Below, piece after piece: positions 6,705 to 24,481 of a DNA stretch of 64,000 nt; the stretch's first letter is position 1; each line of letters begins with the position of its first letter. Origin of the DNA: Gammaproteobacteria bacterium (GTDB taxonomy: Bacteria; Pseudomonadota; Gammaproteobacteria; Nevskiales; Nevskiaceae). The stretch covers positions 1-64,000 of the forward strand of contig JAPLSB010000012.1 in the NCBI GenBank assembly GCA_026398875.1, in the 5' to 3' direction. A program made the translations under genes and the position numbers. The notes under the pieces are model-generated. The model saw only the letters and a program-made list of their open reading frames with translations. It made no database searches and had not been told where the DNA came from.

Positions 6705-9029
6705 TCAACCCACAAGCTTCGATGCTTCCAGCGCGCCTCCATCGACCAGCAAACCCAGCGCTCCGCTGTATTGCGCCACCGAACGCACGACCCAGAATCC
6801 AGGCAGCATTTCCTCGATGTCGCGTCGATCGCGCATCGTCTGGAATTCGTGTGGTGGCAGGCTGACCGTATAGCGCTGCAGCTTGCGCAACAACCAGCGT
6901 TCCGGGCCATCGCGGCGCAGCAATGTGATGAGCTTCTCGAAGTTGTCGTCACCGATGCATCGCTGATACGGAACGTAGACGCTCTGGTACCCGGTCTCGT
7001 CGTTGTCGATCAGCTTGAAGGTGTCTGCGGCGTCGCGCAGGTTTTTGACGTAACCGGTGTCGGTGTCGATTTCGAGCTTTTCGACGATCTTTTTCGCGTC
7101 GCGATCCTGCGCGTTGTAGAACAGCGCGAAGTACCGTTCGAACAGCTTGCGATCGAGGGCGTCGCCGGTGTGACCATGCAGCACTTCCCGGGCTGCACTT
7201 TCGGCCATGCGCAGGCTGCCGCGGGGCGCATCCTTCTCGCCGAAGAAGACATGAACCACGCCTTTGTCGAGAAGACCTTCGCGATTGCAGCGTCCGGCCG
7301 CCTGGGCAATGGAGTCCAGTCCGGCGAACTGGCGATAGACCACCGGCAGGTCGATATCGACGCCGCATTCGACCAGGGGTGTCGCGACAACGCGAACCGG
7401 TAGCAGGTCGGGATTGGCACGGCGCGCGCTCAATGCCTGCTTGATTCGCGCAATCACATCCGATCGATGCGCGCCGCACATCAGCGCCGACAGATGAATG
7501 GCGCCTGATGGCAGCAGCTGCCACAGCGCGCGGGCATCTGCGCGTCGGCTGACGATGGCCAGCACGTCGTCGTTGGCCGACATCCGTTCGGCGATGTCGG
7601 CCCAGCTTGAGCGCCGAGTGGTGTCGGCGGGCAGATGGACTTCCACACGTTTCAGGCCGCGATAGAGCCGATCGACATCGGCAATGATCTCGCGCGGTGT
7701 ATCGAGGCCCCGGAATCTGCTGCCGAAGCGTGCGCTGCTGGCAAGCGCCGGCTGGGTCGCGGTCGACAGTACGACGGTGGTCTTGTAGTGCCGGCTCAGC
7801 AGGTTCAGCGCATCGACGATCGGCTGAAGGAACGGCGGTGGCAGCAGCTGCGCTTCGTCGAGCACGACGACGCTTTCGCAGACGTTGTGCAGCTTGCGGC
7901 AGCGGCTGGTCTTGGCCGCAAACAATGATTCGAAGAACTGGACGCCGGTGGTGACGATCACTGGCGCGTCCCAGTTCTCGGTCGCGAGCTTCAGTCGCTC
8001 GCCTTGTCGCTCGCTTGCCTGGTCATCGCCATTGTCCTCGGCGTTGCTGTGATGTTCGATCACGGCGTCGGCAAATGCAGACGAGATGCTGCGGAAGACG
8101 TCGGCCGTCTGCTCGATGATGCTGGTGTAAGGAATCACGTAGATGACGCGCTTCAAGCCGTGCCGCGCAGCGTGTTCCAGTGCGAAGCCGAGACTGGCCA
8201 AGGTCTTGCCGCTACCCGTCGGCACCGTCAGCGTGAATAGCCCCTGCGCATCGCCGGCAGCGCGGCGGCAATCGGCCAGCACGTCGGCACGCAGGCGTTT
8301 GACCGGCGTGTCGGCAGCGAAGCGCGACATGAACTGATTGAAGTCCGGAAGCAGGCGATCGAGCGTTGGAAAGCTGGTGCGCAGCTGACTGGCTTTGATG
8401 CCACTGCCGAAGGCTTCGCTGTCGAGCCGATCGGCGTCGATTAGGCAGGAGAACAGCATGCGTACCCAGAACGCGTAGTTGCCGGGTGTGGGGTCGGTGC
8501 AGGGCGCGAGCGTGAACGCGGGAGGGCGGCCTTGATGCGCATCAAGAATCGCCGCATCGACCCCGCCCGCCAGCGCACGCGATAGATGCTCCGGCGCTTC
8601 GGCCTTGCTTAGCCGCTGCTGCAGGTCGAAGCCGTTGTAGAGCCCGCTGTGATGCGCGGCGATGATCTGGGCCAGTACCGGGCCGACGGGGCCGATCGAT
8701 GCCAGGGCATGCAGCGCGCCGGCAGCGGAATGATCCGGACCTTTCCGGCGCGGGTGGTCGTCTTCGAGATGGGCGTCCTCGGCGTTCGACTGGTCGACGC
8801 CACAGGCTTCGCGAATGAAGCGTTGCCAGTCAGGCGCGTACTTGCCCAGGTCGTGCCACAGGCCGCCGAGGCGGGCAAGTTCAGCAGCGCCGAATGCCGA
8901 TGCGAACATCGCGCTTCGTTCAGAGACCCCGCGCAGGTGGTCGGGCAACGGTTGGGCAAGGGGGCCATCACTGCCCGTTGTGTAGCGGGCGATGGGGGCT
9001 GTCGGGGCTGTATTGCGATCACTGTTCAT
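6705..9029 (-). CDS. cas3: CRISPR effector helicase-nuclease Cas3 (HD + SF2)
   Basis: Cas3 is recruited by target-bound Cascade and unwinds and degrades DNA. The 774-residue protein has an N-terminal HD nuclease domain (LWHDLGK at 57-63, His100, HH126-127) and an SF2 helicase: Walker A PTGSGKT at 270-276, DEAQ at 391-394, STATQP at 422-427, and a late QAAGRCNREG motif VI. All key residues are present, so interference should be intact. It is the first cas gene of the run. Confidence 0.96.
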   Translation of the reverse strand: MNSDRNTAPTAPIARYTTGSDGPLAQPLPDHLRGVSERSAMFASAFGAAELARLGGLWHDLGKYAPDWQRFIREACGVDQSNAEDAHLEDDHPRRKGPDHSAAGALHALASIGPVGPVLAQIIAAHHSGLYNGFDLQQRLSKAEAPEHLSRALAGGVDAAILDAHQGRPPAFTLAPCTDPTPGNYAFWVRMLFSCLIDADRLDSEAFGSGIKASQLRTSFPTLDRLLPDFNQFMSRFAADTPVKRLRADVLADCRRAAGDAQGLFTLTVPTGSGKTLASLGFALEHAARHGLKRVIYVIPYTSIIEQTADVFRSISSAFADAVIEHHSNAEDNGDDQASERQGERLKLATENWDAPVIVTTGVQFFESLFAAKTSRCRKLHNVCESVVVLDEAQLLPPPFLQPIVDALNLLSRHYKTTVVLSTATQPALASSARFGSRFRGLDTPREIIADVDRLYRGLKRVEVHLPADTTRRSSWADIAERMSANDDVLAIVSRRADARALWQLLPSGAIHLSALMCGAHRSDVIARIKQALSARRANPDLLPVRVVATPLVECGVDIDLPVVYRQFAGLDSIAQAAGRCNREGLLDKGVVHVFFGEKDAPRGSLRMAESAAREVLHGHTGDALDRKLFERYFALFYNAQDRDAKKIVEKLEIDTDTGYVKNLRDAADTFKLIDNDETGYQSVYVPYQRCIGDDNFEKLITLLRRDGPERWLLRKLQRYTVSLPPHEFQTMRDRRDIEEMLPGFWVVRSVAQYSGALGLLVDGGALEASKLVG

Positions 9030-13294: not shown

Positions 13295-13765
13295 TCACTT
13301 TTTTACTGGGAAAAAGAAAGCATTTATGTTTTTGTTGCTTAAGTAATCCAGTATTGTCTTTACTTCTTCTGGACGCCTGCCGTGGAGGAACGATTTTTCT
13401 CCAGCGGTCAGTACATTTACAAAAGTAATTTTTACTTCGTTTCCTCGGTGAGCTTCTTTGGTCTCGCCAATGCCCCCTGAAATCTTCGTCTCGATGCCAG
13501 CTGAGCTTGGCGCGCCGGCGTCAATGGCAAGTTTGTTTTCGTCTTTAGCAGAAGAAGTTACCTTAAAGGTTATCTCAACTGTATCGGGTATCAAGCCACT
13601 AGCAAGTGTGCCCTGAGCGTCTCGCATTTCGTTAAGGCCGATTCCGACGGAACGTAGAGCTTGCTCAAGCGTTATTTCTTTTGGGGGAGTGGGTATGACG
13701 GCTTGGGTAGAGTTACATCCGGCAAGAGTGCAAAAAAGAAGTGCAATAGTTTTTTTGATGTTCAC
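13295..13765 (-). CDS. Putative lipoprotein, possibly trypco2-like domain
   Basis: The 156-residue product (GTG start at 13765; ATG at 13804 would add 13 residues) begins with a lipoprotein signal, IALLFCTLAGC, with lipobox LAGC. The rest, with LEQALRSVGIGLNEM, then DTVEITFKVTSSAKDENK and a basic-acidic beta-rich stretch ending NEVKITFVNV, looks like the small domain found next to trypsin-like proteases (trypco2). That assignment is tentative. The gene and its flanks are clearly richer in A and T than the neighbours, a sign of recent transfer. No protease gene is adjacent. Confidence 0.65.
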   Translation of the reverse strand: MNIKKTIALLFCTLAGCNSTQAVIPTPPKEITLEQALRSVGIGLNEMRDAQGTLASGLIPDTVEITFKVTSSAKDENKLAIDAGAPSSAGIETKISGGIGETKEAHRGNEVKITFVNVLTAGEKSFLHGRRPEEVKTILDYLSNKNINAFFFPVKK

Positions 13766-13846
13766 GGCGCGGCCTTTGCGGTAAACAACTTCATGGAAAA
13801 GCATAGGAGCCCTATCGCTAGTTTGAACAACCTTAGCGACTAAATT

Positions 13847-13879: not shown

Positions 13880-15181
13880 TCACGATCCCAGCGCCAGCGC
13901 ATTCAAGCCGGCCGTCGCGCGCGGCGTGCTGTGCAGCCGTGAGGCGATCCGCTCGACGATGTGCTGGGCGTCGCGCGCCACGCCGGAGAAGCGGCCGGAG
14001 CCCCAGGTGTATAGCCATGGCAGGCCGATGAAGTACAGGCCCGGCACGGTGGTGATGCCGCGGTCGTGACCCGGGTAGCCGCGGCCGTCGAACACCGGCA
14101 CGTCGATCCAGCGGAAGTCGGCCTTGTAGCCGATGCACCAGATCACCGTGGTGATACCGGCCGCGGCGAAATCGAACTCCGTGCGCTCGGCGGCTGGTTT
14201 CCAGACCGGCACATAGCGCGGCTCGGTCGGTGCATCGACGCCGGCGCGGGCGATGTAGGCGTCGATGCTGTCCTTGATCGATTCCAGGGTCGCGTCGGCG
14301 CTGTCGAGGTTCTTTTCCAGGTCCGGCTGCACGGTGATCGTCGTGCCGCGAATGTCGTCGAGCCGGCCGTACAGCTCCATGCCTTCCGATGCGAACTTGC
14401 GCAGGTCGATTTCGCGGCCGCCATCGCGGCCCGTCAGGTAGTGGTTGGACTTCGAGCGCACGCGTTCCTTGTTCGGATGCTCGTGAATGCCGATGTCGTA
14501 ATAGCCCATCTGGTTCAGCCACTCGACGGCGTCCTTGCCGCGATAGCGACGCGGCGCGCGCGGCGCGCCGCCAACGCACAAGTGAACCTTGCGACCAGCC
14601 AGATGCAGGTCCTCGGCGATCTGACAGCCGCTCTGGCCGGTGCCGACGATCAGCACCGCGCCGGGCGGCAGCGCTGCCGGATTGCGGTACTGCGGCGCGT
14701 GCATCTGCAGCATCGACGGCGGCAGGCGTTCGGCGCTGGCCGGCTTGACCGGCACCTGATACGCGCCGCTGGCGATGATCACTTCGTTGGCCGTGTACTC
14801 GCCGATCGAGGTCGCAACCGTATAGCTGCCGCCGTCGTTCTGGCTGACGCGGGTGACGGCAACGCCTTCAAGCACCGGCGGCTCGAAGCTGGCCACAAAG
14901 GCTTCGATGTACTGCACGATTTCGTCCTTCAGCATGAAGCCGTACGGATCGCTGCCCTGATACGGAAAGCCGGGCAAGGTGCACTGCCAGTTCGGCGTGA
15001 CCAGGCAGAACGAATCCCAGCGGTGCTCGCGCCATTCGTGGGCGATGCGCTGTTTCTCGAACACCACATGCGCGATGCCGCGCTGCTTCAGATGCCAGCT
15101 TGCCGACAGGCCGGCCTGGCCGCCACCGATGACGATGACAGGGTAGTGGTTCGGAGCAAGCGGGCGGGTCATGGCGTTCAT
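13880..15181 (-). CDS. nitH: MSMEG_0569-family flavin-dependent oxidoreductase (NitH-like)
   Basis: A 433-residue FAD/NADPH monooxygenase-like protein. The FAD site is VIVIGGGQAGLSASWHLKQRG (about 15-35) and the NADPH site VLIVGTGQSGCQIAEDL (about 176-192); the order and the FxGxxxH-like DSFCLVTPNWQ region follow the flavin monooxygenase class. It is the last gene of a seven-gene run in the nitBCDEFGH order of Nit1C clusters. The reaction is not known; an N- or C-hydroxylation of a nitrile- or amine-bearing intermediate is a guess. ATG at 15172 is an alternative start. Confidence 0.9.
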   Translation of the reverse strand: MNAMTRPLAPNHYPVIVIGGGQAGLSASWHLKQRGIAHVVFEKQRIAHEWREHRWDSFCLVTPNWQCTLPGFPYQGSDPYGFMLKDEIVQYIEAFVASFEPPVLEGVAVTRVSQNDGGSYTVATSIGEYTANEVIIASGAYQVPVKPASAERLPPSMLQMHAPQYRNPAALPPGAVLIVGTGQSGCQIAEDLHLAGRKVHLCVGGAPRAPRRYRGKDAVEWLNQMGYYDIGIHEHPNKERVRSKSNHYLTGRDGGREIDLRKFASEGMELYGRLDDIRGTTITVQPDLEKNLDSADATLESIKDSIDAYIARAGVDAPTEPRYVPVWKPAAERTEFDFAAAGITTVIWCIGYKADFRWIDVPVFDGRGYPGHDRGITTVPGLYFIGLPWLYTWGSGRFSGVARDAQHIVERIASRLHSTPRATAGLNALALGS

Positions 15182-15211: not shown

Positions 15212-15496
15212 TCAGCTGAAGCGGACGACGGTGACCGTCGCGGCGGGATCGAATTGGTAGTCGCTGGCGCGCCGTTCGATCTCGGCCAGCTGGTGGGCAG
15301 CACTCGAGCAGGCATAGCCGTAGCGCTGGCGCACACGTTCGCTGGCCAGATGCAATGCGGCCTGGCTCAGGCGTACGAAGTCCTGCAGCGCGTACGGCTG
15401 GCCCGGCGTGAAGTAGTCGCGAATCGTTGACGACGGCGAGTAGCAGATCGTGGTCGTGTCATCAGGCCAACGGACTTCGAAGCGGACTTCGGGCAT
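15212..15496 (-). CDS. nitG: MSMEG_0570-family nitrogen starvation response protein (NitG-like)
   Basis: A 94-residue protein with the family marks MPEVRFEVRWPDDTTTICYSPS and ASERVRQRYGYACSSA. It has no assigned activity; it is defined by its constant presence in nitrilase/radical-SAM (Nit1C) clusters. A diverged second copy is encoded at 22446-22733 in this window, sharing MPEVxFxVRWPD, the CYSPS(S/T)TIR stretch and the SERVRxxxGxAC block. The conserved Cys residues may bind a metal or a substrate, which is inference. Confidence 0.9.
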   Translation of the reverse strand: MPEVRFEVRWPDDTTTICYSPSSTIRDYFTPGQPYALQDFVRLSQAALHLASERVRQRYGYACSSAAHQLAEIERRASDYQFDPAATVTVVRFS

Positions 15497-15526: not shown

Positions 15527-16534
15527 TCAGGCGGCGCGGCGCTGCGTTGCGGCGGCGGTGGCAATCGACGGTGCGCAGCCGATCAGGCCCTGCTGCTCGA
15601 AATCCCAGGCCAATGCGCGGTCGCCATCGTCGGTCAGGTGCAGTTGCCGGGCGGCGGTGCAGCGGCCGATCGCCGATGCGGAGATATCACGAGCATGGAA
15701 GCGCGCCAGCACCTCGTCGACCTTGCTGGGCCGCACCGCCAGCAGGAAGCCGTAGCTCAGGAAGGTGTGCAGCAGCCAGCGCTGCAAGTCGGCATCGGCC
15801 GGCATCGGCACCTGGTCGAGATCGACATCGGCACCGACGTTCGAGCACTCCAGCAGCATCAGCAAGGTGCCGAGCAGGCCGGCATTGCTGATGTCCTTGG
15901 CCGCACAGCAGAGCCGGTCCTCGGCCAGCTTCGGCAGGATTTCCAGATCGCCGCGAAGCCGCTCGGGCTCGCTGCCGCTGGCGGCATCCCAATTCGAGAA
16001 ATGCTCGCGGTAGGCGCCGCGCAGGTCGGTCGCGGCAATCAGCACATCGCCGGGCTTCGCTTCGAAGCTCGACAGCAGCGCCTTGGCACGGCCGAGGATC
16101 GCCACCGATAACTGTTCGCTGCCGGCCCGGGCATTGGCATGACCGCCGACCACCGGCACGCTGTAGACCCGTGCGGCGTCGGCCATGCCATCGAGAATGG
16201 CCTTGCCGTGTGCGGCATCGCGGCTCCAGATCGCGTCGACCACGGCGATCGGCCGGCCGCCCATCGCGTAGATGTCGGACACGTTGACCATCACGCCGCA
16301 CCAGCCGGCAAAGCGCGGCTCGCGTTCGACGAACTCGCTCAGGAAACCTTCGATCGCCAGCAGCAGCCAGCCGTCGCCGGATGGATCGGGGATCGCTGCG
16401 CAGTCATCGCCAACCTTGATATCGCTGTCGCCGCCGATGCCGAGCGCTGCGACCACGGCGCTGATATCGCGCTTGTGGGCGACGCCGCGGCTGCTGTGCA
16501 GTGCGGTGATCAGCTGCGTGAGCGCCGCGCTCAT
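15527..16534 (-). CDS. nitF: Sll0787-family AIR synthase-like protein (NitF-like)
   Basis: A 335-residue member of the PurM/AIR synthase-related ATP-binding fold. The N-terminal DIKVGDDCAAIPDPSGDGWLL matches the nucleotide-binding Asp-Asp motif of PurM/ThiL/SelD proteins, followed by MVNVSDIYAMGGRPIAVVDA. It overlaps the nitE-like stop by 4 bp (ATGA), which fixes the ATG at 16534. In a Nit1C cluster it probably uses ATP to activate or cyclise an intermediate, but the substrate is unknown. Confidence 0.9.
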   Translation of the reverse strand: MSAALTQLITALHSSRGVAHKRDISAVVAALGIGGDSDIKVGDDCAAIPDPSGDGWLLLAIEGFLSEFVEREPRFAGWCGVMVNVSDIYAMGGRPIAVVDAIWSRDAAHGKAILDGMADAARVYSVPVVGGHANARAGSEQLSVAILGRAKALLSSFEAKPGDVLIAATDLRGAYREHFSNWDAASGSEPERLRGDLEILPKLAEDRLCCAAKDISNAGLLGTLLMLLECSNVGADVDLDQVPMPADADLQRWLLHTFLSYGFLLAVRPSKVDEVLARFHARDISASAIGRCTAARQLHLTDDGDRALAWDFEQQGLIGCAPSIATAAATQRRAA

Positions 16535-17109
16535 GCAGCACTCCGCAAGGTGGTGATGAAGCCACGTTCGACGCTTTCGCACGGCGGATAGTGCGCGAGG
16601 TCGGCTTCCATCCGCATGTGCGGGCGGCCTCTGAGTTCAATGGCTTCCAGCGCACGCCAATGCAGGCGCTCGAACAGTGCGACGTTCTGCTGCTGCACCT
16701 GCGCGACGAAGCGCAGCGCGCCGCGGGCATGAGCAAGGCTGACCGCCAGATGGATCAGCTCGCGGCCCAGCCAGGCCTGGCCGCGATAGTCGCGGCGCAC
16801 CGCGAGCCGCGAGCCTTGCCAGACGTCGTCTCCAAGCGCGTGCACGCGTACCGTGCCGACCACGTCCTCGGACATGCTGTGGATGCACGACACCGCGACC
16901 AGCGTGATCGCGCCGATGTCGTCATCGACATCATCGGCATCAGTGAAATCGAACAGCCGCTGCTCGGCGCAGAACACGGCGCGGCGCAGGTTTCGCGCTT
17001 CGCGCAGTTCCCAGGCTTCGGTCGCCAGCTTCACGCGATATTCGACCGGCCGGTAGTCGGCAACGGCGACACTGGCGGCGCAGGCGGGAATCCAGTCGGC
17101 GGCGCGCAT
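16531..17109 (-). CDS. nitE: MSMEG_0567/Sll0786-family GNAT N-acetyltransferase (NitE-like)
   Basis: A 192-residue GNAT protein. The acetyl-CoA loop region is SRLAVRRDYRGQAWLGRELI and the conserved head RRAVFCAEQRLFD resembles members of this nitrogen-starvation family. The C-terminal RGRPHMRMEADLAHYPP is also typical. It lies 3 bp after the radical SAM gene and overlaps nitF by 4 bp. The acyl acceptor is unknown; transfer to an amine made by the pathway is inferred. Confidence 0.9.
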   Translation of the reverse strand: MRAADWIPACAASVAVADYRPVEYRVKLATEAWELREARNLRRAVFCAEQRLFDFTDADDVDDDIGAITLVAVSCIHSMSEDVVGTVRVHALGDDVWQGSRLAVRRDYRGQAWLGRELIHLAVSLAHARGALRFVAQVQQQNVALFERLHWRALEAIELRGRPHMRMEADLAHYPPCESVERGFITTLRSAA

Positions 17110-17112
17110 TGC

Positions 17113-18237
17113 CTATGCCTTCTCGTACGCGGACAGCGACGAGCAGGCGCCGCACTTGCCGCAGCCGGCCTTGATCTCGGCGGACTTCAGCCCGCCGGCA
17201 ACCAGCATCCTGCCGAGCGGCGCCAGCAGCGCGCGCATCTCTGCCGCATCCGGCGAGCGCTGGTTTTCCAGCGGCGTGCCGGCGATCGGCACGAATGGCA
17301 CCACGAATGGATAGACGCCGAGCGCGATCAGCTTTTCGCTCATCGACAGCACCGCGTCGCGGGTGTCGCCCAGGCCGTACAGGATGTAGGTCGACACCTG
17401 GCCGCGGCCGAACACGGCAACCGCCTGCTCGAACGCGGTCAGATAGTGGTCGACGGTGACCGTCGCCTTGCCCGGCATGATCTGCTCGCGCACCGATTGC
17501 GATACCGCTTCGATATGCATGCCCAGCGTGTCGATGCCGGCGTTCTTCATCCGCTGATACCAGCGCGGATCATCCGGCGGCTCGCACTGGCCCTGGATCG
17601 GCAGGCCGTTGGCGAAGCCGGCGTGGGCGACGGTTGCCGCCTTCACGCCGAACGCGCTTTCGCACAGGATTTCGGCACCGCGATCCGTGAAGTTCGGCGT
17701 GCCGGTGGTCATCACCATGTGCTGGATGCCGTCGAGCAGCATCGCGGCGCGCGCCACTTCGCCAAGCTGCTCCGGCGTCTTGCGGTTGATCGTGCGATCG
17801 CCCTTCAGTGATTCGCCGATCGCGCAGAACTGGCACGAGGTGCTGCGCCGGCCGTAGCGCACGCAGGTTTGCAGCACCGTGGTCGCCAGCACATCGGCAC
17901 CATGCAGCGTGGCGATCTTCCAGTACGGCACGCCGTCGAGCGTCTGCATCCGGTAGAAGCGCGGCTGCTTCGGGAACGCGATTTCCTTGATCGGAATGCT
18001 GTTGCGCTTGAGCGTGACGCCACCATCGGCGCGCGGCAGGCCGACTTCGAATGCAGAGGCTCGGGCATCGGCCGAATGCACCGGCACCATGATCGTTCGG
18101 CCATCGATCGTCACGGCCTTGTGGTCGCTCGGGCCGGCACCGCCACGGCGGCTTGGTGCGCCGGCGCTGTCATCGGCGAGGCGCAGGCCTTGCGATTGCA
18201 GCTCGGTCAACAGTTGCGCGGTGTTGGCAGTGTTCAT
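17113..18237 (-). CDS. nitD: MSMEG_0568-family radical SAM protein (NitD-like)
   Basis: A 374-residue radical SAM enzyme. The cluster cysteines are in CVRYGRRSTSCQFC (Cys125, Cys135, Cys138), an extended CX9CX2C instead of CX3CX2C, which is characteristic of this subfamily. A second cysteine set at the C-terminus (Cys359, Cys362, Cys365, in CGKCGAC) suggests an auxiliary Fe-S or metal site. Sits between the nitC- and nitE-like genes. It is the most likely source of unusual chemistry in the pathway, but its substrate is not known. Confidence 0.92.
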   Translation of the reverse strand: MNTANTAQLLTELQSQGLRLADDSAGAPSRRGGAGPSDHKAVTIDGRTIMVPVHSADARASAFEVGLPRADGGVTLKRNSIPIKEIAFPKQPRFYRMQTLDGVPYWKIATLHGADVLATTVLQTCVRYGRRSTSCQFCAIGESLKGDRTINRKTPEQLGEVARAAMLLDGIQHMVMTTGTPNFTDRGAEILCESAFGVKAATVAHAGFANGLPIQGQCEPPDDPRWYQRMKNAGIDTLGMHIEAVSQSVREQIMPGKATVTVDHYLTAFEQAVAVFGRGQVSTYILYGLGDTRDAVLSMSEKLIALGVYPFVVPFVPIAGTPLENQRSPDAAEMRALLAPLGRMLVAGGLKSAEIKAGCGKCGACSSLSAYEKA

Positions 18238-18267: not shown

Positions 18268-19305
18268 TCAGCGCAGCGCAGCCTTGCGTGTGTCGCTCAG
18301 CGCGACGACGCGATCGGTGGCAGAGGTTTCGAGCGGTGCTGTGGCATCGAGCGGCAGCGCGGTGTCGGGCACCGGCAGGCCGGCGGCCGGTGCGGTGGCG
18401 CGGGAATCCAGCACCAGGCTCAGCAGTTCCGGGCGCGCGTAATGGCCGACCGAATCCATCATTCGCTTGCGCTTGGTGATCAGGTTCAGGTCGCAGTCGG
18501 CAATCAGCAGGCCTTCGCCATCGCGCAGCGGCTCGACGACATGGCGGCCTTCCGGCGTGATGATCGCGGTGTAGCAGCCGCCGGCGAACGCCTTCTGCAG
18601 TTCCGGCGTCGGTGCCTGCGTCGCTTTCTGTTCCGGCGTCAGCCAGGCCGTGGCATTGACCACGAAGCAGCCGGATTCCAGTGCGTGATGGCGCATCGTC
18701 ACTTCCATCTGGTCGGCGAAGATCGGGCCGACCAGCGAGCCCGGAAACTGCGAGCAGTGGATTTCCTCGTGCTGGGCCATCAGCGCGTAGCGCGCCAGCG
18801 GGTTGTAGTGCTCCCAGCAGGCCAGCGCGCCGATGCGGCCGACGGCGGAGTCGACGACCTTCAGGCCGGAGCCATCACCCATGCCCCAGACCATGCGCTC
18901 GTGGTAGGTCGGCGTGATCTTGCGGCGCTTGAGCAGCAGGCGGCCGTCGGCGTCGAAGATCAGTTGGGCGTTGTACAGCGTGCCGTGGTCGCGCTCGTTG
19001 ATGCCGAGCACCACGACGATGCCGGCGGCTTTCGCAGCGGCGGCGATCGCATCGGTCACCGGGCCGGGCACGGTGGGCGAGTGTTCGTAGAGCTTCAGAT
19101 GAATCGCGCCCATCGACACCGCAGGCGTGACGAACGAGAAATAGGGGTAGTACGGCACCACCGTTTCCGGAAACACGATCAGCTGCGCGCCGTCGCGGGC
19201 GGCGTCGGCAATCGCTTTCAGCACCTTGTCGACGGTGCCGGTCGCGGAGTCGAGCACCGGGTTCAGCTGGGCGGCGGCGACTCTGACGATGTTGCTGGCA
19301 GGCAT
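18268..19305 (-). CDS. nitC: Nit6803-family nitrilase (NitC-like)
   Basis: Nitrilases hydrolyse nitriles to acids and ammonia. The 345-residue protein carries the catalytic triad Glu47 ([13 protein letters not shown]), Lys129 ([12 protein letters not shown]) and Cys163 ([12 protein letters not shown]). ATG at 19305 is preferred to a TTG 18 bp upstream. The family includes the Synechocystis nitrilase, and in Nit1C clusters of pseudomonads the homologue is required for growth on cyanide. It is the second gene of the run, 152 bp after the nitB-like gene, a gap with a weak sigma-54-like motif. Confidence 0.94.
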
Positions 19306-19457: not shown

Positions 19458-19937
19458 TCAGACCGTCCAGGTGTGAATCACGAACGCGCCTTCGCGGTGC
19501 AGCAGGCACAGGTCAAGCACGTCGAGCGGGTTGATCGGCCGAATGCCCGGCAGCAGCGAATGCTCGCCGTGGCCGTAAAGCATCTGCAGTGCGAAGCGGC
19601 AGCAATAGACCTTGCCGCCTTCGGCCATGAACGCGTTCAGCTGGGCCGAAAAGTTCTGCGCACCCGGGAACGCTTCGTCGCCGATGGTCGGGAAGCCGCG
19701 CTGGATGCCGAGCGTCACGCCCGGGCCGTACAGCAGGATCGAGGTCTCGAAGCCCTTCCGCTGCAGGCGCTTGGCCTGAAGGATGTTGACCAGGCCGATC
19801 GAGCCTTCGAACGCGACGGTATGGAAAGTGACCAGCGCCTTCTCGCCGGGCTTGGCCTTCACATCTTCAAAAACCTTCTCTTCGTAATCGACGAAGAAGT
19901 CGCCTTTCTTGGTCGGGGTGGTGGTGACTGCGGGCAT
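19458..19937 (-). CDS. nitB: MSMEG_0572/Sll0783-family nitrogen starvation protein (NitB-like)
   Basis: A 159-residue protein of the family first noted as nitrogen-starvation-induced in cyanobacteria. It has a DsrE-like look: strands [18 protein letters not shown] and [18 protein letters not shown], with a cysteine pair in [14 protein letters not shown] (about residues 112-125). It is the first gene of the nit run, with an AGGAG ribosome site 9 bp before the ATG at 19937 and a sigma-54 promoter 74 bp upstream. Its job in the pathway is unknown. Confidence 0.92.
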
Positions 19938-20010
19938 GGCTGTCGCTCCTGTGGGATCGGGGCTGCGGGTCGTTGTGCGCTGCGCCGGCGTGGCGGCACG
20001 ACCGGATGAA

Positions 20011-20026
20011 CGCAATCGCTATGCCA
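20011..20026 (-). promoter_or_regulatory. Sigma-54 promoter of the nit cluster
   Basis: The minus strand reads TGGCATAGCGATTGCG, matching TGGCAC/T-N-TTGC with GG (-24) and GC (-12) correctly spaced. Transcription would start near 20000 and leave a 63-nt leader before nitB. Sigma-54 promoters need an enhancer-bound activator; the NtrC-like sites at 20190-20225 lie about 190-225 bp upstream. Confidence 0.75.
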
Positions 20027-20768
20027 TCGATCGCTAAAAAAATGCGATCACAATGCGATCAAGAGGCGAGATTGTTGGTTTCGCTGGATATTTGCGTTCG
20101 ACGCGTGCGACGAGCCGTCTGCCCGCGGCGCATCGCGTTTTCGCAGGGCCGCCGTGTGCGTGGCTGAAATCAGCAGAACACGGCTGCGATGCACCGAAAT
20201 GGTCGTAATGCACTTGTTTGGTGGGGGTATGCGGAATCCGGGAAGTGGTCGACGGCGCGTCGATCACGCTGCTGACGTCGGCGTGACGGCCGACGTTCGC
20301 GCTTCCTCGAACGCTGCCGAGCATCTCCGTACAGGCAATCGGCTAGCGACGGGTGTTGCACCGAAACGAAACAATCGACTCAAGTGATTGATCTTTATTG
20401 CGTCGTGCCCTGGCGACTGTTGCTTCCGGCAGCCGGATCGTGCGATTTCGGTGCGCGGCCGCAGCTTCGATACGGTGCAATCAATTTGTCGGCACCCGAT
20501 TCTCGTGATCCGGCACGCGACCGCGAAACGGTGGCAGCGCAGGGCGAGCGCGCCGGCGATATCGGCAAATCCTGATATTTGCCATTCAATTCAACGGATT
20601 GCTAGCAAGGAATCAACGCCGATCTGGCGCGAACGGTCTTCATCAATCGACGGCGGCCGCTTCGGTCGCAGGTCACGGCAGCAAAAATGTTTTCGCCGGG
20701 GAAACTCCTTGAGCGGCAAGCGATTGCGAAACAATTCAGTAAATTGATCGCATATGTCTTGCAACAGT
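20027..20768. other. Long regulatory gap between nitB and the porin gene
   Basis: This 742-bp stretch has no credible gene; the short open frames show no protein features. It contains the two NtrC-like sites and, at its ends, the two divergent sigma-54 promoters. Other parts show nothing I can identify. Confidence 0.6.
20190..20225. promoter_or_regulatory. Two tandem NtrC-like enhancer sites
   Basis: Site 1, at 20190-20206, reads TGCACCGAAATGGTCGT, and site 2, at 20209-20225, reads TGCACTTGTTTGGTGGG. Both fit the NtrC consensus TGCACY-N5-GGTGCA in the left half and most of the right half, and they are spaced 19 bp apart, suitable for cooperative binding. They lie between the divergent nit and porin sigma-54 promoters and could serve both. 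A further half site, TTGCACC, is at 20356-20362. Confidence 0.65.
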
Positions 20769-20784
20769 TGGCATGTCGGTTGCT
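20769..20784 (+). promoter_or_regulatory. Sigma-54 promoter of the porin gene
   Basis: TGGCATGTCGGTTGCT matches the -24/-12 consensus with correct spacing. The start site would be near 20795, giving a leader of about 82 nt to the porin ATG. The TGGCAT core is shared with the nit and second nitG-like promoters. Confidence 0.72.
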
Positions 20785-20876: not shown

Positions 20877-22175
20877 ATGACCCGCAACCTCCGCATCCCG
20901 GCGCGCTGCAGCGTCGCCCTGCTGTTTCTCGGCGCCGGCCTCGGCTTCGGCGGCACGGCCCAGGCGTTCGCCGTCGAGACCAACGGCGTGACGTTCAGCG
21001 TCACCGGCAACGTCAACACCAACTACACGTTCACCCACTGCGACAAGAACCCGGGCGTGGTGGCGGGCAGCCTGCTGTGCAGCGCGCCGGCCGGCGATTC
21101 CAGCAAGGCCTCGTCGCTGAACTCCGGCAACTTGCCGAACGGCATCGTGCTGGGGCTGAAGACCAAGGTGTCCGGTGTCGACATGGCGGTGGCCTACGGC
21201 TTCTACCCCGGTGTGGCGAACAACGACTTCGCGTTCGGCAATGGCCCGAATCTGGGCTCCGGCGCCGGCAACGTGGCACTCGGCGGCCCGAACCTCGACA
21301 TTCGACAGGTCTACGCAACGTTCTCCACTGCCGAGCTCGGCACGCTGAAGATTGGCCGCGACTATTCGCTGCTTGGCTTCGATGCGATCGTCAACGACAT
21401 CACGCTGATCGCGGTCGGCGTGGCCAGCGTGCGCACGGCGACGTCGCCGGCCAACACCACGCTGGGCACGATCGGCTTCGGCCACCTGTTCTCCACACCG
21501 AATGCCGGCATCAGTTACACGACGCCGAGCTACGAAGGCCTGACCGCCACGATCGGCATCTATCAGCCGCTGGATGCCATCGCATTGACCGGCATCGGTG
21601 CCGGTTCGTCGGCCTCGGCGAAGCCCGCCCCGCAGATCCAGGGCCAGGTGAAGTACAAGTTCGGTGATGCCAAGGGCATCGCGGGCTTTGCGTCGTTCAG
21701 CGGCCTGTACCAGAAGCAGGAGCTGACGGTCGCCGGCGCCGGTGCGATGCTGACCGATGCCAACCCGGTCGCGATGGGCGCCGATTTCTCCGGCAAGCTC
21801 GCCTATGCCGGCGCTGCGCTGGTCGGCCACTACTACTACGGCGAAGGCCTGGGCGCGTATTCGTACTTCATCGAAGGCTTCTCGCCGACCGGCAAGGCGC
21901 GTGTTTCGCAGGGCGGCTACATCCAGGCGACGTACACCTACGGCAAGACCACGTTCGGTGCGAACTACGGCATCAGCCGCCTGAACACCACCGATGGCGA
22001 TGCCGATGGCGGCGCGCTGCTGAAAGCGAACAGCAAGTACACGGTCGGCGTCTATCACAAGCTGCTCGACAACCTGACCTTGACCAGCGAGTTCACCGAC
22101 GCGAAGTCGAAGGCCAACAGCGGCGACACGATCAACACGACGAACTACAACGTCGGCTTCTTCATCTCGTTCTGA
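20877..22175 (+). CDS. Outer-membrane porin, general diffusion type
   Basis: A 432-residue beta-barrel porin. It has a signal peptide (CSVALLFLGAGLGFGGTAQA), then alternating amphipathic strands typical of Gram-negative porins, for example GTLKIGRDYSLLGFDAIVN, and ends with a C-terminal phenylalanine (FFISF), the signal used by the BAM machine. The ATG at 20877 has an AAGGGAG ribosome site. Divergent from the nit cluster and also under a sigma-54-type promoter, it may let a small nitrogenous solute through the outer membrane when nitrogen is short. The substrate is not readable from sequence. Confidence 0.9.
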   Translation: MTRNLRIPARCSVALLFLGAGLGFGGTAQAFAVETNGVTFSVTGNVNTNYTFTHCDKNPGVVAGSLLCSAPAGDSSKASSLNSGNLPNGIVLGLKTKVSGVDMAVAYGFYPGVANNDFAFGNGPNLGSGAGNVALGGPNLDIRQVYATFSTAELGTLKIGRDYSLLGFDAIVNDITLIAVGVASVRTATSPANTTLGTIGFGHLFSTPNAGISYTTPSYEGLTATIGIYQPLDAIALTGIGAGSSASAKPAPQIQGQVKYKFGDAKGIAGFASFSGLYQKQELTVAGAGAMLTDANPVAMGADFSGKLAYAGAALVGHYYYGEGLGAYSYFIEGFSPTGKARVSQGGYIQATYTYGKTTFGANYGISRLNTTDGDADGGALLKANSKYTVGVYHKLLDNLTLTSEFTDAKSKANSGDTINTTNYNVGFFISF

Positions 22176-22445: not shown

Positions 22446-22733
22446 TCAGTCCTCGTACGCCTCGATCGTCACCTGCGCATCCGGCTGGTTCGCGTAACGC
22501 GCCGCGAAGCTTTCGATGATCGCGATCTGCATTTCCGCGCGGCCGCAAGCAAAGCCGTGCTTGCGACGCACCCGCTCGCTGCCTTTCTCCAGCGCCGCCC
22601 GGCTGATCTCGACGAACTCGCTCAGCGGAAAGCTGCGCCCGGCACCGAGCGTGCGGCGGATCGTGGTCGATGGGGAATAGCAGCGCGTGGCCGTGTGATC
22701 AGGCCAGCGAACGCGGAAATGGACTTCGGGCAT
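22446..22733 (-). CDS. Second MSMEG_0570-family protein (NitG-like paralogue)
   Basis: A 95-residue paralogue of the nitG-like protein at 15212-15496. Shared features are MPEV(H/R)FxVRWPD, CYSPSTTIRRTLGAGRSFPLSEF and SERVRRKHGFACG. ATG at 22733 is taken because it matches the paralogue start; a much longer frame runs on upstream without similarity. The gene is alone, 6 kb from the main cluster, with its own sigma-54 promoter. The C-terminus differs most, so the two may have different partners. Confidence 0.9.
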   Translation of the reverse strand: MPEVHFRVRWPDHTATRCYSPSTTIRRTLGAGRSFPLSEFVEISRAALEKGSERVRRKHGFACGRAEMQIAIIESFAARYANQPDAQVTIEAYED

Positions 22734-22817: not shown

Positions 22818-22833
22818 CGCAAGCGATATGCCA
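22818..22833 (-). promoter_or_regulatory. Sigma-54 promoter of the nitG-like paralogue
   Basis: The minus strand reads TGGCATATCGCTTGCG, nearly the same as the nit promoter at 20011-20026. The start would be near 22807, leaving a leader of about 74 nt to the ATG at 22733. An NtrC-like site at 23020-23036 (TGCCCG-GATAC-GGTGCA) lies about 215-230 bp upstream. Confidence 0.72.
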
Positions 22834-23019
22834 AGGACCGCTTTCTGGCCTGCGATCATCGTGCGATCATTGAAGCAGACCGATGAAATGACGCGATATT
22901 TCCTCGCTGGCCGGAATCGCCGGCAGTGGCGGAACTGCAACTCGGCACCGGTCCGATCCGCCGTCGCGCTGCGCATCCGCGTTGCGATGGCCCACCGAAC
23001 ACCGCTGCGCGCTCGGTGC

Positions 23020-23036
23020 TGCCCGGATACGGTGCA
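23020..23036. promoter_or_regulatory. Possible NtrC-like site
   Basis: The sequence TGCCCGGATACGGTGCA has a full right half (GGTGCA) and a 4 of 6 match in the left half at NtrC spacing. It lies between the divergent nitG-like paralogue and the MocR-type gene. Confidence 0.4.
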
Positions 23037-23074
23037 GCGCGAGAGCCGTGCCGCACACGACAGGCCTGCCATTG

Positions 23075-24481
23075 ATGGGCACGACACCGAACCGCTGGGC
23101 CGCGATGATTCGCGCCAGCACCAAGCCGGCGTATCTGGCGATTGCCGATGCGATTGCCGATGACATCGCCGCCGGCCGTCTGGCCGCCGAACAGCGCCTG
23201 CCGCCGCTGCGGGCGCTGGCCAAGCATCTCGATCTGAACTTCACCACCGTGTCGCGGGGCTATGCCGAGGCGCAGCGCCGCAAGCTGATCGACTCGCAGG
23301 CCGGCCGCGGCACCTTCGTCGTGCCGGCGGCGCCGGTGGTGTCGACCGTAGTCCGCTCGCCCGCTGCGGTCGGGCTGATCGACATGACCATGAACATGCC
23401 GCCGGAGCCGCAGGAATCGGCGATTCACCAGATGCTGCGCAACGGGCTCGGCGCACTGCGCGACGTGCCCGATCTGCACTCGCTGCTGCGCTACCAGGAG
23501 TTCGGTGGCGGACCGGGCGATCGCGAGGCCGGTGCCCGCTGGCTTGGCGAGCGCATTCCCGAGTTGCCGCCGAACCGCGTGCTGGTGGTGCCGGGCGTGC
23601 AGTCGGCGCTGCTGGCGCTGTTCAGCGTGCTGGCTCGTGCCGGCGAAACGATCTGCTGCGAAGCGGTGACCTATCCCGGCGTGAAGGGCCTCGCGGCGCA
23701 GCTCGGCATCCGCCTGATGGGATTGCCGTGTGACGACGAAGGCATCGACCCGGAAGCCTTTGGTGCAGCCTGCGCGTCGTTGCTGCCGAAAGCGCTGTAC
23801 TGCAATCCGACGATGCTCAACCCGACCACGGCGACGATGTCGCAGGCGCGGCGCGAAGCGATCGTCGAGATCGCGCGGCGCTACTCGGTGCCGATCATCG
23901 AGGACGATGCCTACGGTTTCCTGCCCAGCGTGCCGCTGACGCCGCTGGCCGTGCTGGCACCGGAGCTGACCTTCCACGTCACCGGTTTCGCCAAGTGCGT
24001 TGGCGCTGGCCTGCGGGTCGGCTATCTGGCCGCGCCGAACACCCGCTATACGGCGCGCCTGTCATCGTCGTTGCGCACGTCCAGCGTCATGGCGTCGCCG
24101 ATCACGACGTTTCTGGCCACGCAGTGGATCAACGACGGCACCGTGAAGCTGGCGACCGATGCGATCCGCGAGGAATCGCGCGCGCGCCAGAAGATCGCCG
24201 CCCAGGTGCTGAAGCGCGCCGACTATTCCGCGAATCCGGAAGCCTTTCACCTTTGGCTGCGCGTGCCGGCGCCGTGGAACCGAATCGAGTTCTCGACGCA
24301 TCTGCGCGCCAGCGGCGTCGGTGTGGTGGTGTCCGACGCGTTCACCGTGACCGGGCCGGCGCCGGAAGCGGTGCGGGTCTGCCTCGGTGGCGTATCGAGC
24401 CAGCAGGAATGCCGGCACTCGCTGGAAATCATCGAGGACGCGCTCGAGCAGATTCCGGAAGTCGCGTCCGGCGTGATGTAG
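23075..24481 (+). CDS. MocR/PdxR-type regulator (GntR domain + aminotransferase fold)
   Basis: A 468-residue protein with an N-terminal GntR winged helix (IADDIAAGRLAAEQRLPPLR and KHLDLNFTTVSRGYAEAQRR, about residues 20-70) fused to a class I aminotransferase-like domain; the PLP lysine is in HVTGFAKCVGAGLRVGYLAAP. Such proteins are transcription factors that sense PLP or amino compounds. Start at 23075 is chosen; ATG at 23105 would also keep the DNA-binding domain. It is next to nitrogen-controlled genes, so a role in their control is possible; targets of MocR proteins usually lie next to them. Confidence 0.88.
   Translation: MGTTPNRWAAMIRASTKPAYLAIADAIADDIAAGRLAAEQRLPPLRALAKHLDLNFTTVSRGYAEAQRRKLIDSQAGRGTFVVPAAPVVSTVVRSPAAVGLIDMTMNMPPEPQESAIHQMLRNGLGALRDVPDLHSLLRYQEFGGGPGDREAGARWLGERIPELPPNRVLVVPGVQSALLALFSVLARAGETICCEAVTYPGVKGLAAQLGIRLMGLPCDDEGIDPEAFGAACASLLPKALYCNPTMLNPTTATMSQARREAIVEIARRYSVPIIEDDAYGFLPSVPLTPLAVLAPELTFHVTGFAKCVGAGLRVGYLAAPNTRYTARLSSSLRTSSVMASPITTFLATQWINDGTVKLATDAIREESRARQKIAAQVLKRADYSANPEAFHLWLRVPAPWNRIEFSTHLRASGVGVVVSDAFTVTGPAPEAVRVCLGGVSSQQECRHSLEIIEDALEQIPEVASGVM

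Follow-up and report, generated by a model that had tools for sequence, protein, structure and literature searches.

A sigma-54 nit promoter with a probable MocR operator and NtrC-type dyads in a nit1C cluster without an adjoining NitA gene

We analyzed a window of 64,000 nucleotides (the window being the whole stretch of DNA under analysis) from a Nevskiaceae bacterium, together with its draft genome of 4,150,362 bases (4.15 Mb; 24 contigs, 95% complete). Among named genomes, a Nevskia MAG comes closest (nitC 90%). The window carries the nit1C gene set nitB to nitH in order on the minus strand (19937-13880), and all seven genes exceed the curated NCBIfam cut-offs. The role of this cluster is the use of nitriles or cyanide as a nitrogen source. 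Its genes, each identified by an NCBIfam match, are as follows.

19458..19937, minus strand: nitB (TIGR04044)
18268..19305, minus strand: nitC, Nit6803 family nitrilase (TIGR04048)
17113..18237, minus strand: nitD, radical SAM protein (TIGR04043)
16531..17109, minus strand: nitE, N-acetyltransferase (TIGR04045)
15527..16582, minus strand: nitF, AIR synthase-like (TIGR04049)
15212..15496, minus strand: nitG (TIGR04042)
13880..15181, minus strand: nitH, flavin-dependent oxidoreductase (TIGR04046)

Downstream of nitH, a 169-aa protein (13295-13804, minus strand) has no NCBIfam or Pfam match, and a 774-aa ORF (6705-9029, minus strand) looks by eye like a Cas3 helicase-nuclease. On the other side of nitB, three further genes were found.

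20877..22175, plus strand: gene for an outer-membrane porin-like protein, located between nitB and mocR (assigned by eye; without a Pfam or NCBIfam match)
22446..22733, minus strand: second nitG-like gene (TIGR04042; 109 bits, cut-off 79.85)
22982..24481, plus strand: mocR, GntR wHTH plus class I aminotransferase (ORF limits; domain search)

Conservation of the MocR protein begins near residue 39, and its start may be the ATG near 23075. A lysine chosen by eye, which from its surroundings we take to be the PLP lysine, is kept in all 68 MocR sequences compared. The closest curated model is EhuR (NF052286), matched over the whole length with 438.1 bits, below the cut-off of 480.

Three elements of the sigma-54 type lie in front of nitB, the porin-like gene and the second nitG-like gene.

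20011..20026, minus strand: sigma-54 -24/-12 element of nitB, TGGCATAGCGATTGCG (single genomic occurrence; conserved in relatives)
20769..20784, plus strand: sigma-54 -24/-12 element of the porin-like gene, TGGCATGTCGGTTGCT (present in 8/8 genus genomes with the porin layout, 11 examined)
22818..22833, minus strand: sigma-54 -24/-12 element of the second nitG-like gene, TGGCATATCGCTTGCG (genome pattern scan, genus comparison)

The consensus of sigma-54 promoters is TGGCACR-N4-TTGCW. The nitB element has the consensus gap of 10 nt between GG and GC and departs at two positions (T for C, G for W). Its predicted start near 20000 lies 63 nt before the nitB ATG (19937), and the first T of TGGCA is 89 nt from this ATG. 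TGGCATAGCGATTGCG (20026-20011, minus strand) occurs once in the 4,150,362-base genome. By contrast with this single 16-mer, the general pattern TGGCAYRNNNNTTGC has a whole-genome count of 13 (reversed control: 5), and three of these sites are the ones listed above, all within 2.8 kb. For all 13 sites, the longest ORF that opens in the next 400 nt has its start at a distance of 53-186 nt; these ORFs, which may not be genes, include pilin-like and FliL-like ones (named by eye).

Using sigma-54 and NtrC matrices that we made by hand from consensus sequences, we then compared homologous regions. A -24/-12 site (score ≥19.2) was found 56-124 nt before the nitB ATG in 92 of 109 upstream regions, which comprised 80 loci found by nitC similarity, 28 same-family loci and the window. 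The 80 loci, the highest-ranking of at least 586 confirmed candidate stretches, are biased toward close relatives; of 30 same-family loci fetched, one is the window's own locus, and L110, which does have a sigma-54 site, was left out. Because same-family loci partly repeat the 80 (e.g., L109 and L021), the 92 promoters were reduced to 72 non-redundant ones. The site is kept across families and classes. An earlier note on this DNA had proposed a proper -24/-12 promoter 63 nt from nitB, and this proposal holds well, given the right spacing, the unique 16-mer and the conservation in relatives. On these sequence features, the element is the predicted sigma-54 promoter of the nitBCDEFGH operon. It would depend on rpoN, for which the genome has three PF04552 matches (G000:C14:94269, C21:43398 and C1:61292).

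The presence of this promoter goes together with that of a linked mocR gene. Among the 80 loci (best of at least 586), 67 have a MocR protein of ≥40% identity, whose gene is divergent and upstream of nitB in 62 (within 600 bp in 58), codirectional and upstream in four, and downstream of the cluster in one. The remaining 13 loci are nine methanotroph-type and four cyanobacterial ones. A sigma-54 site was found in 65/67 MocR-linked loci versus 0/13 loci without MocR, in counts that keep near copies in and ignore kinship; ancestry may explain part of the association, the MocR-less loci being methanotroph-type and cyanobacterial. A linked MocR without a sigma-54 site was seen in L051, L054 and one Komagataeibacter plasmid. 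In the methanotroph-type loci (L026-L029, L041, L043, L049, L074 and L075), no linked MocR, sigma-54 site or activator was seen.

An unguided motif search of the upstream regions gave ATTGATYGCAT as its strongest result; the motif forms a direct repeat with 11 bp spacing. It is present at all three promoters of the window.

20042..20063, minus strand: probable MocR operator of nitB, direct repeats CTTGATCGCAT / TGTGATCGCAT, whose starts lie 37 and 26 bp before the T of TGGCA
20743..20753, plus strand: probable MocR box of the porin promoter, ATTGATCGCAT, 26 bp upstream of TGGCA
22850..22871, minus strand: probable MocR boxes of the second nitG promoter, AATGATCGCAC at -38 (2 mismatches) and GATGATCGCAG at -27 (3 mismatches)

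With up to one mismatch, on either strand and within 360 nt of nitB, the box was found in 60/67 MocR-linked versus 0/13 MocR-less loci, again among the best 80 of at least 586. Because of this linkage and co-absence, we assign MocR to the repeat, and MocR probably binds it. The placement of the boxes relative to the first T of TGGCA is strict. With up to two mismatches in the 72 promoters, a box starts at -37 in 24, at -27 in 16, at -26 in 12 and at -38 in 12, against a background of 0.25 per offset (the mean further upstream). A box at -38 to -36 or at -27/-26 is present in 46/72 promoters compared with 0-4 when the offsets are slid, and 26/72 have none at the main offsets. In 16/72, mostly from alphaproteobacteria, boxes lie near -62 and -50 (about 24 bp further out), instead or additionally. 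When the boxes served as the sole anchor (50 loci), GG-N10-GC was recovered at 37 (18 loci), 27 (13), 38 (5) and 26 bp (4), the next best distance giving 3.

Of the 13 genomic sigma-54 sites, only the three listed above have a box at the fixed offsets, and one other has a box at -61. At three further exact ATTGATYGCAT matches in the genome (C3, C15 and C16), no sigma-54 site lies at the required spacing. Of 11 genus genomes (the window's own included), eight carry both the porin-like gene and the second nitG, and in each of these eight a sigma-54 site accompanied by one or more boxes at -37/-38 or -26/-27 is found at all three promoters. No porin match was obtained in L200-L202, the remaining genus genomes; two of them have a nitB sigma-54 site with a box near -36/-37, and in L200 no 20.1-scoring site precedes nitB, while one with a box at -37 precedes another stretch. 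In addition, a block AAACCAACARTYT (20069-20081, minus strand) is kept just upstream of the boxes in porin-bearing genus members, and ATGTCTC is found at about its place in many other same-family loci.

The nit1C cluster of Pseudomonas pseudoalcaligenes (oleovorans) CECT 5344 carries NitA, from which sigma-54 control is expected there (PMC11049912, PMC5333837, PMC6368324, PMC10138600). No NitA was found beside the window cluster in this 95% complete draft genome. The NitA-type query came from an Acinetobacter indicus plasmid. Among 19 PF00158 matches of the genome, the 15 strongest resemble the NitA-type protein only in the AAA+ and HTH parts; four matches of 21-30 bits were left out of the comparison, and L013 was compared only as its downstream piece. 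This agrees with the absence of NitA asserted in the earlier note. In the L013 frame of a sigma-54 activator (G000:C24:39527-40012), a TAG stands at the expected Walker A lysine. Among the 80 related loci (best of at least 586), a linked sigma-54 activator was found in one only, L092, where it is non-adjacent.

A second sample was searched after the rule had been formed. It comprised the gammaproteobacterial order of G422, with 390 genomes, 24 of which have nitB: 19 loci have MocR upstream and five have a NitA-type activator. All 19 MocR-linked promoters have a -24/-12 site (≥19.6; two begin TGGCCC). A box at -37/-38 or -27 is present in 15/19 MocR-linked promoters (absent in 4/19) versus 0/5 NitA-linked ones, and a dyad of at least 9 bits, of the NtrC type described below, in 12/19 versus 0/5. 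The sample contains repeats of the first set (L208 = L035, L215 = L094, L216 = L160) and near copies (L218/L219 and L227/L228), and L225/L226 are alike; without repeats, a hand count gives the box in about 12/15 and the dyad in about 9/15 MocR-linked promoters. The NitA-linked loci L227-L231 have four TGGTAC sites at 18.8, below the first-set cut-off, and one TGGCAC site at 20.3, with TCGC at -12 throughout. Another NitA-linked locus, L191, has the site TGGCACGGCTTTGGCA, with TGGC at -12 rather than TTGC. Unlike the window promoter, the NitA-linked promoters examined (L191, L227-L231) have neither the repeat nor dyads.

These loci bear on what the TGGCAY-N6-TTGC element is. It is box-like in its -12 region in some loci (ATTGATTGCA), as would be expected if it were part of a MocR operator, or else a sigma-70 -35 region, and not a sigma-54 promoter. 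We consider this highly improbable: GG and GC are kept while the intervening bases vary, a similar site occupies the same place in the box-less NitA-linked loci (TGGYAC-N6-TCGC forms; TGGCACGGCTTTGGCA), and the pattern also precedes the pilin-like and FliL-like ORFs of the genome. A stricter version, in which the -12 region is a MocR box only, was rejected, as a similar promoter is retained in the NitA-linked loci, which have no boxes.

A class-wide search found nitC in 4 of 369 genomes, the window's own included. Two of these loci (L160 and L161) have MocR, a sigma-54 site and a box at -27 or -26; in L162, neither MocR nor NitA was seen on the contig, the site (TGGTATAGCCGTTGCA) is weaker, and a box is absent. 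In the order of G360, nitB was found in one of 40 genomes (G360 itself).

The NtrC dyad consensus is TGCACY-N5-RGTGCA. Two candidate sites lie upstream of the nitB promoter.

20209..20225, minus strand: NtrC-like dyad CCCACCAAACAAGTGCA (12.4 bits of a maximum of 20.4; family-wide enrichment)
20190..20206, minus strand: weak second NtrC-like site ACGACCATTTCGGTGCA (7.6 bits, one good half-site only)

The earlier note had described two NtrC-like sites 19 bp apart about 200 bp upstream. Their spacing is as described and the first is a good site, while the second is weak; 12.4 bits is reached by 1 of 100 shuffles of 500 bp. The support for an enhancer comes from comparison with relatives. A dyad of at least 12 bits lies 80-260 bp upstream in 16/57 promoters (15 of the 72 were left out, being the window or loci <5 kb), whereas such a score occurs in 0.95% of 11,400 random 180-bp windows from related loci. 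At 12 bits, the NtrC matrix finds 21/72 promoters versus 0.6±0.9 (maximum 8) with 400 permuted dyads; 51/72 non-redundant promoters are without a 12-bit dyad. GCAC-N7-GTGC with at most one mismatch is found in 44/72 promoters versus 12-19 in shuffles, the top result among gaps of 2-15, and gap 9 is the runner-up (35/72 versus 10-22).

Within the genus, a dyad of at least 8.5 bits lies 191-199 bp upstream at the nitB promoter in 7/8 genomes (L196, the eighth, has no dyad reaching 8.5 bits before nitB) and 201-204 bp upstream at the second nitG promoter in 4/8, with TGCACCGGGCGGGTGCA as the best form. The porin promoter has only 8.8-bit sites at -331/-332, in 2/8 genomes. The window's genome encodes an NtrC that passes both curated models (TIGR01818: 692.6 bits, cut-off 558.6). 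Comparison with relatives supports an NtrC-type enhancer at the nit promoter, which would depend on NtrC.

Classical NtrC targets include glnK and glnA. In the window's genome their promoters have sigma-54-like sites, yet no dyad of 7 bits, and among genus glnK promoters a sigma-54-like site is present in 8/9, with no NtrC dyad above 8.2 bits; the ntrB promoter of the window's genome has a sigma-54-like site and a 10.4-bit dyad. Because the glnK and glnA promoters are without a dyad, the NtrC motif is uncalibrated in this lineage. In the P-II (GlnK) gene itself (G000:C14:107413-107676; 7414-7677 in L156), which lies before an amtB-like ORF, the T-loop (PF00543 positions 35-54) is missing in frame, truly or through an assembly error, and eight genus relatives have a 117-aa frame there.

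The dyad-free glnK and glnA promoters would fit binding of the nit dyad by another sigma-54 activator rather than by NtrC, given that the genome has 14 strong activator matches plus weaker ones and that gap 9 is raised too. We regard this as unlikely, in that gap 7, the right one, gives the highest count, the dyad fits the NtrC consensus, forms as good as TGCACCGGGCGGGTGCA occur at the second nitG promoter in the genus, and the genome's own NtrC passes both curated models.

According to the earlier note, general NtrC control may have taken the place of NitA. The part that places an NtrC-type enhancer where NitA is absent is supported by the dyads, found in MocR-linked and missing from NitA-linked promoters of the second sample. 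That NtrC alone took over is not supported by the data: MocR, missed in the earlier note, is linked here and in 67/80 loci (best 80 of at least 586), its probable operator recurs more regularly in the promoter than the NtrC sites do, and no NtrC dyad was found upstream of the glnK genes of the genus or of glnA in the window's genome. If NtrC alone drove the sigma-54 promoter, MocR would control other genes and the repeat would belong to something else. The enriched dyads and the NtrC encoded in the genome would allow this, but the repeat is the most enriched upstream motif, is found with MocR, is absent from the 13 MocR-less and from the NitA-linked loci, and, at the fixed offsets, singles out this locus's three promoters from the 13 sigma-54 sites of the genome. 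Hence we consider control by NtrC alone improbable.

As the best explanation, to which we give about two chances in three, a general NtrC-type activator and a promoter-proximal MocR would replace NitA at the sigma-54 nit promoter. The predicted local nit regulon would consist of the nitB operon, the porin-like gene and the second nitG, with three promoters built alike. Eσ54 would sit on TGGCAY-N6-TTGC, held as a closed complex. A remote NtrC-type activator on TGCAC-N7-GTGC dyads, mostly about 140-200 bp upstream, would carry out the ATPase step under nitrogen shortage. MocR would bind the direct repeat immediately before Eσ54 (at roughly -63 to -42 relative to the start) and make expression depend on a pathway signal, probably an amine or amino acid sensed in the PLP pocket. 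The binding partners, the signal and the expression pattern of this two-input model are predictions from the sequences.

The sign of MocR action may be predicted either way. MocR could be a simple repressor that, bound by the -24 element, blocks either Eσ54 or the contact with the enhancer until a nitrile-derived amine releases it, with NtrC as the sole activator. This is a sign-fixed form of the two-input explanation, its odds lie inside those of the latter, and we see it as a serious possibility somewhat short of an even chance. EhuR relatives are repressors, and EhuR is the closest curated model (438 bits, below its cut-off of 480). Moreover, a box overlaps the -12 region (+6) in some alphaproteobacterial loci, and in P. 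pseudoalcaligenes CECT5344 the MocR belonging to the cio cluster exerts negative control (PMC8567248). In contrast, the boxes of beta- and gammaproteobacterial loci stop about 15 bp before TGGCA at a fixed place, which is more like a contact or bending site. The fixed spacing beside the promoter, not on it, suggests MocR contact or bending. Alternatively, and somewhat doubtfully, MocR might be a positive partner that recruits or positions closed Eσ54 at a fixed helical place (-63 to -42), which the NtrC-type enhancer then opens. If this positive reading were true, a two-protein AND gate (nitrogen shortage plus nitrile signal) would have replaced the one-protein NitA switch, and would have done so in alpha-, beta- and gammaproteobacteria.

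The nit1C cluster of CECT 5344 has the same nitBCDEFGH set, with sigma-54 control expected from NitA (PMC11049912); the window cluster differs in being without NitA and in having a linked MocR, the repeat and NtrC-type dyads. Akin to the arrangement here, the cio cluster of CECT 5344 has a MocR gene divergent from a cyanide-related cluster with the nitrilase gene nit4, where MocR acts on cio/nit4 and, in the part of the source available, is tied neither to nit1C nor to a sigma-54 promoter (PMC8567248). A swap between MocR and a sigma-54 activator is already on record for the gab clusters of Bacillus: GabR of B. subtilis belongs to the MocR family and that of B. thuringiensis is a sigma-54 activator, similar to the lineage-wise swap seen here, but the two act at different kinds of promoter, whereas nit keeps a sigma-54 promoter with MocR (PMC4279683). 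EhuR/EnuR-type MocR proteins (NF052286) share the GntR wHTH and PLP aminotransferase fold, and the MocR of the window differs in being nit-linked and at a sigma-54 promoter.

The astCADBE promoter of enteric bacteria combines an NtrC enhancer with ArgR at a sigma-54 promoter. It thus resembles the proposed arrangement in pairing a general NtrC enhancer with a nearby pathway regulator, and an NtrC enhancer with a local co-regulator would already be known in kind; the regulator there is ArgR, not a PLP-binding MocR. The cyanobacterial sll0783-sll0787 genes are orthologous and by family name belong to the nitrogen-starvation response, but the four cyanobacterial nit loci examined have neither a sigma-54 site nor MocR, unlike the window. 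To our knowledge, MocR regulators are known from ordinary promoters. In the open-access literature, most subscription papers lying outside the search, we found no MocR that acts on nit1C or at a sigma-54 promoter. A MocR operator with such strict spacing, swapped in nature for NitA, would allow comparison of two ways of coupling a pathway signal to sigma-54. It would also make MocR a regulator candidate for cyanide or nitrile use outside NitA-bearing bacteria, and the predicted nit regulon of the genus would gain a porin-like gene and a second nitG. In a plasmid collection, nitC relatives were detected in 530 of 72,556 plasmid records, 373 of these 530 being from Klebsiella.
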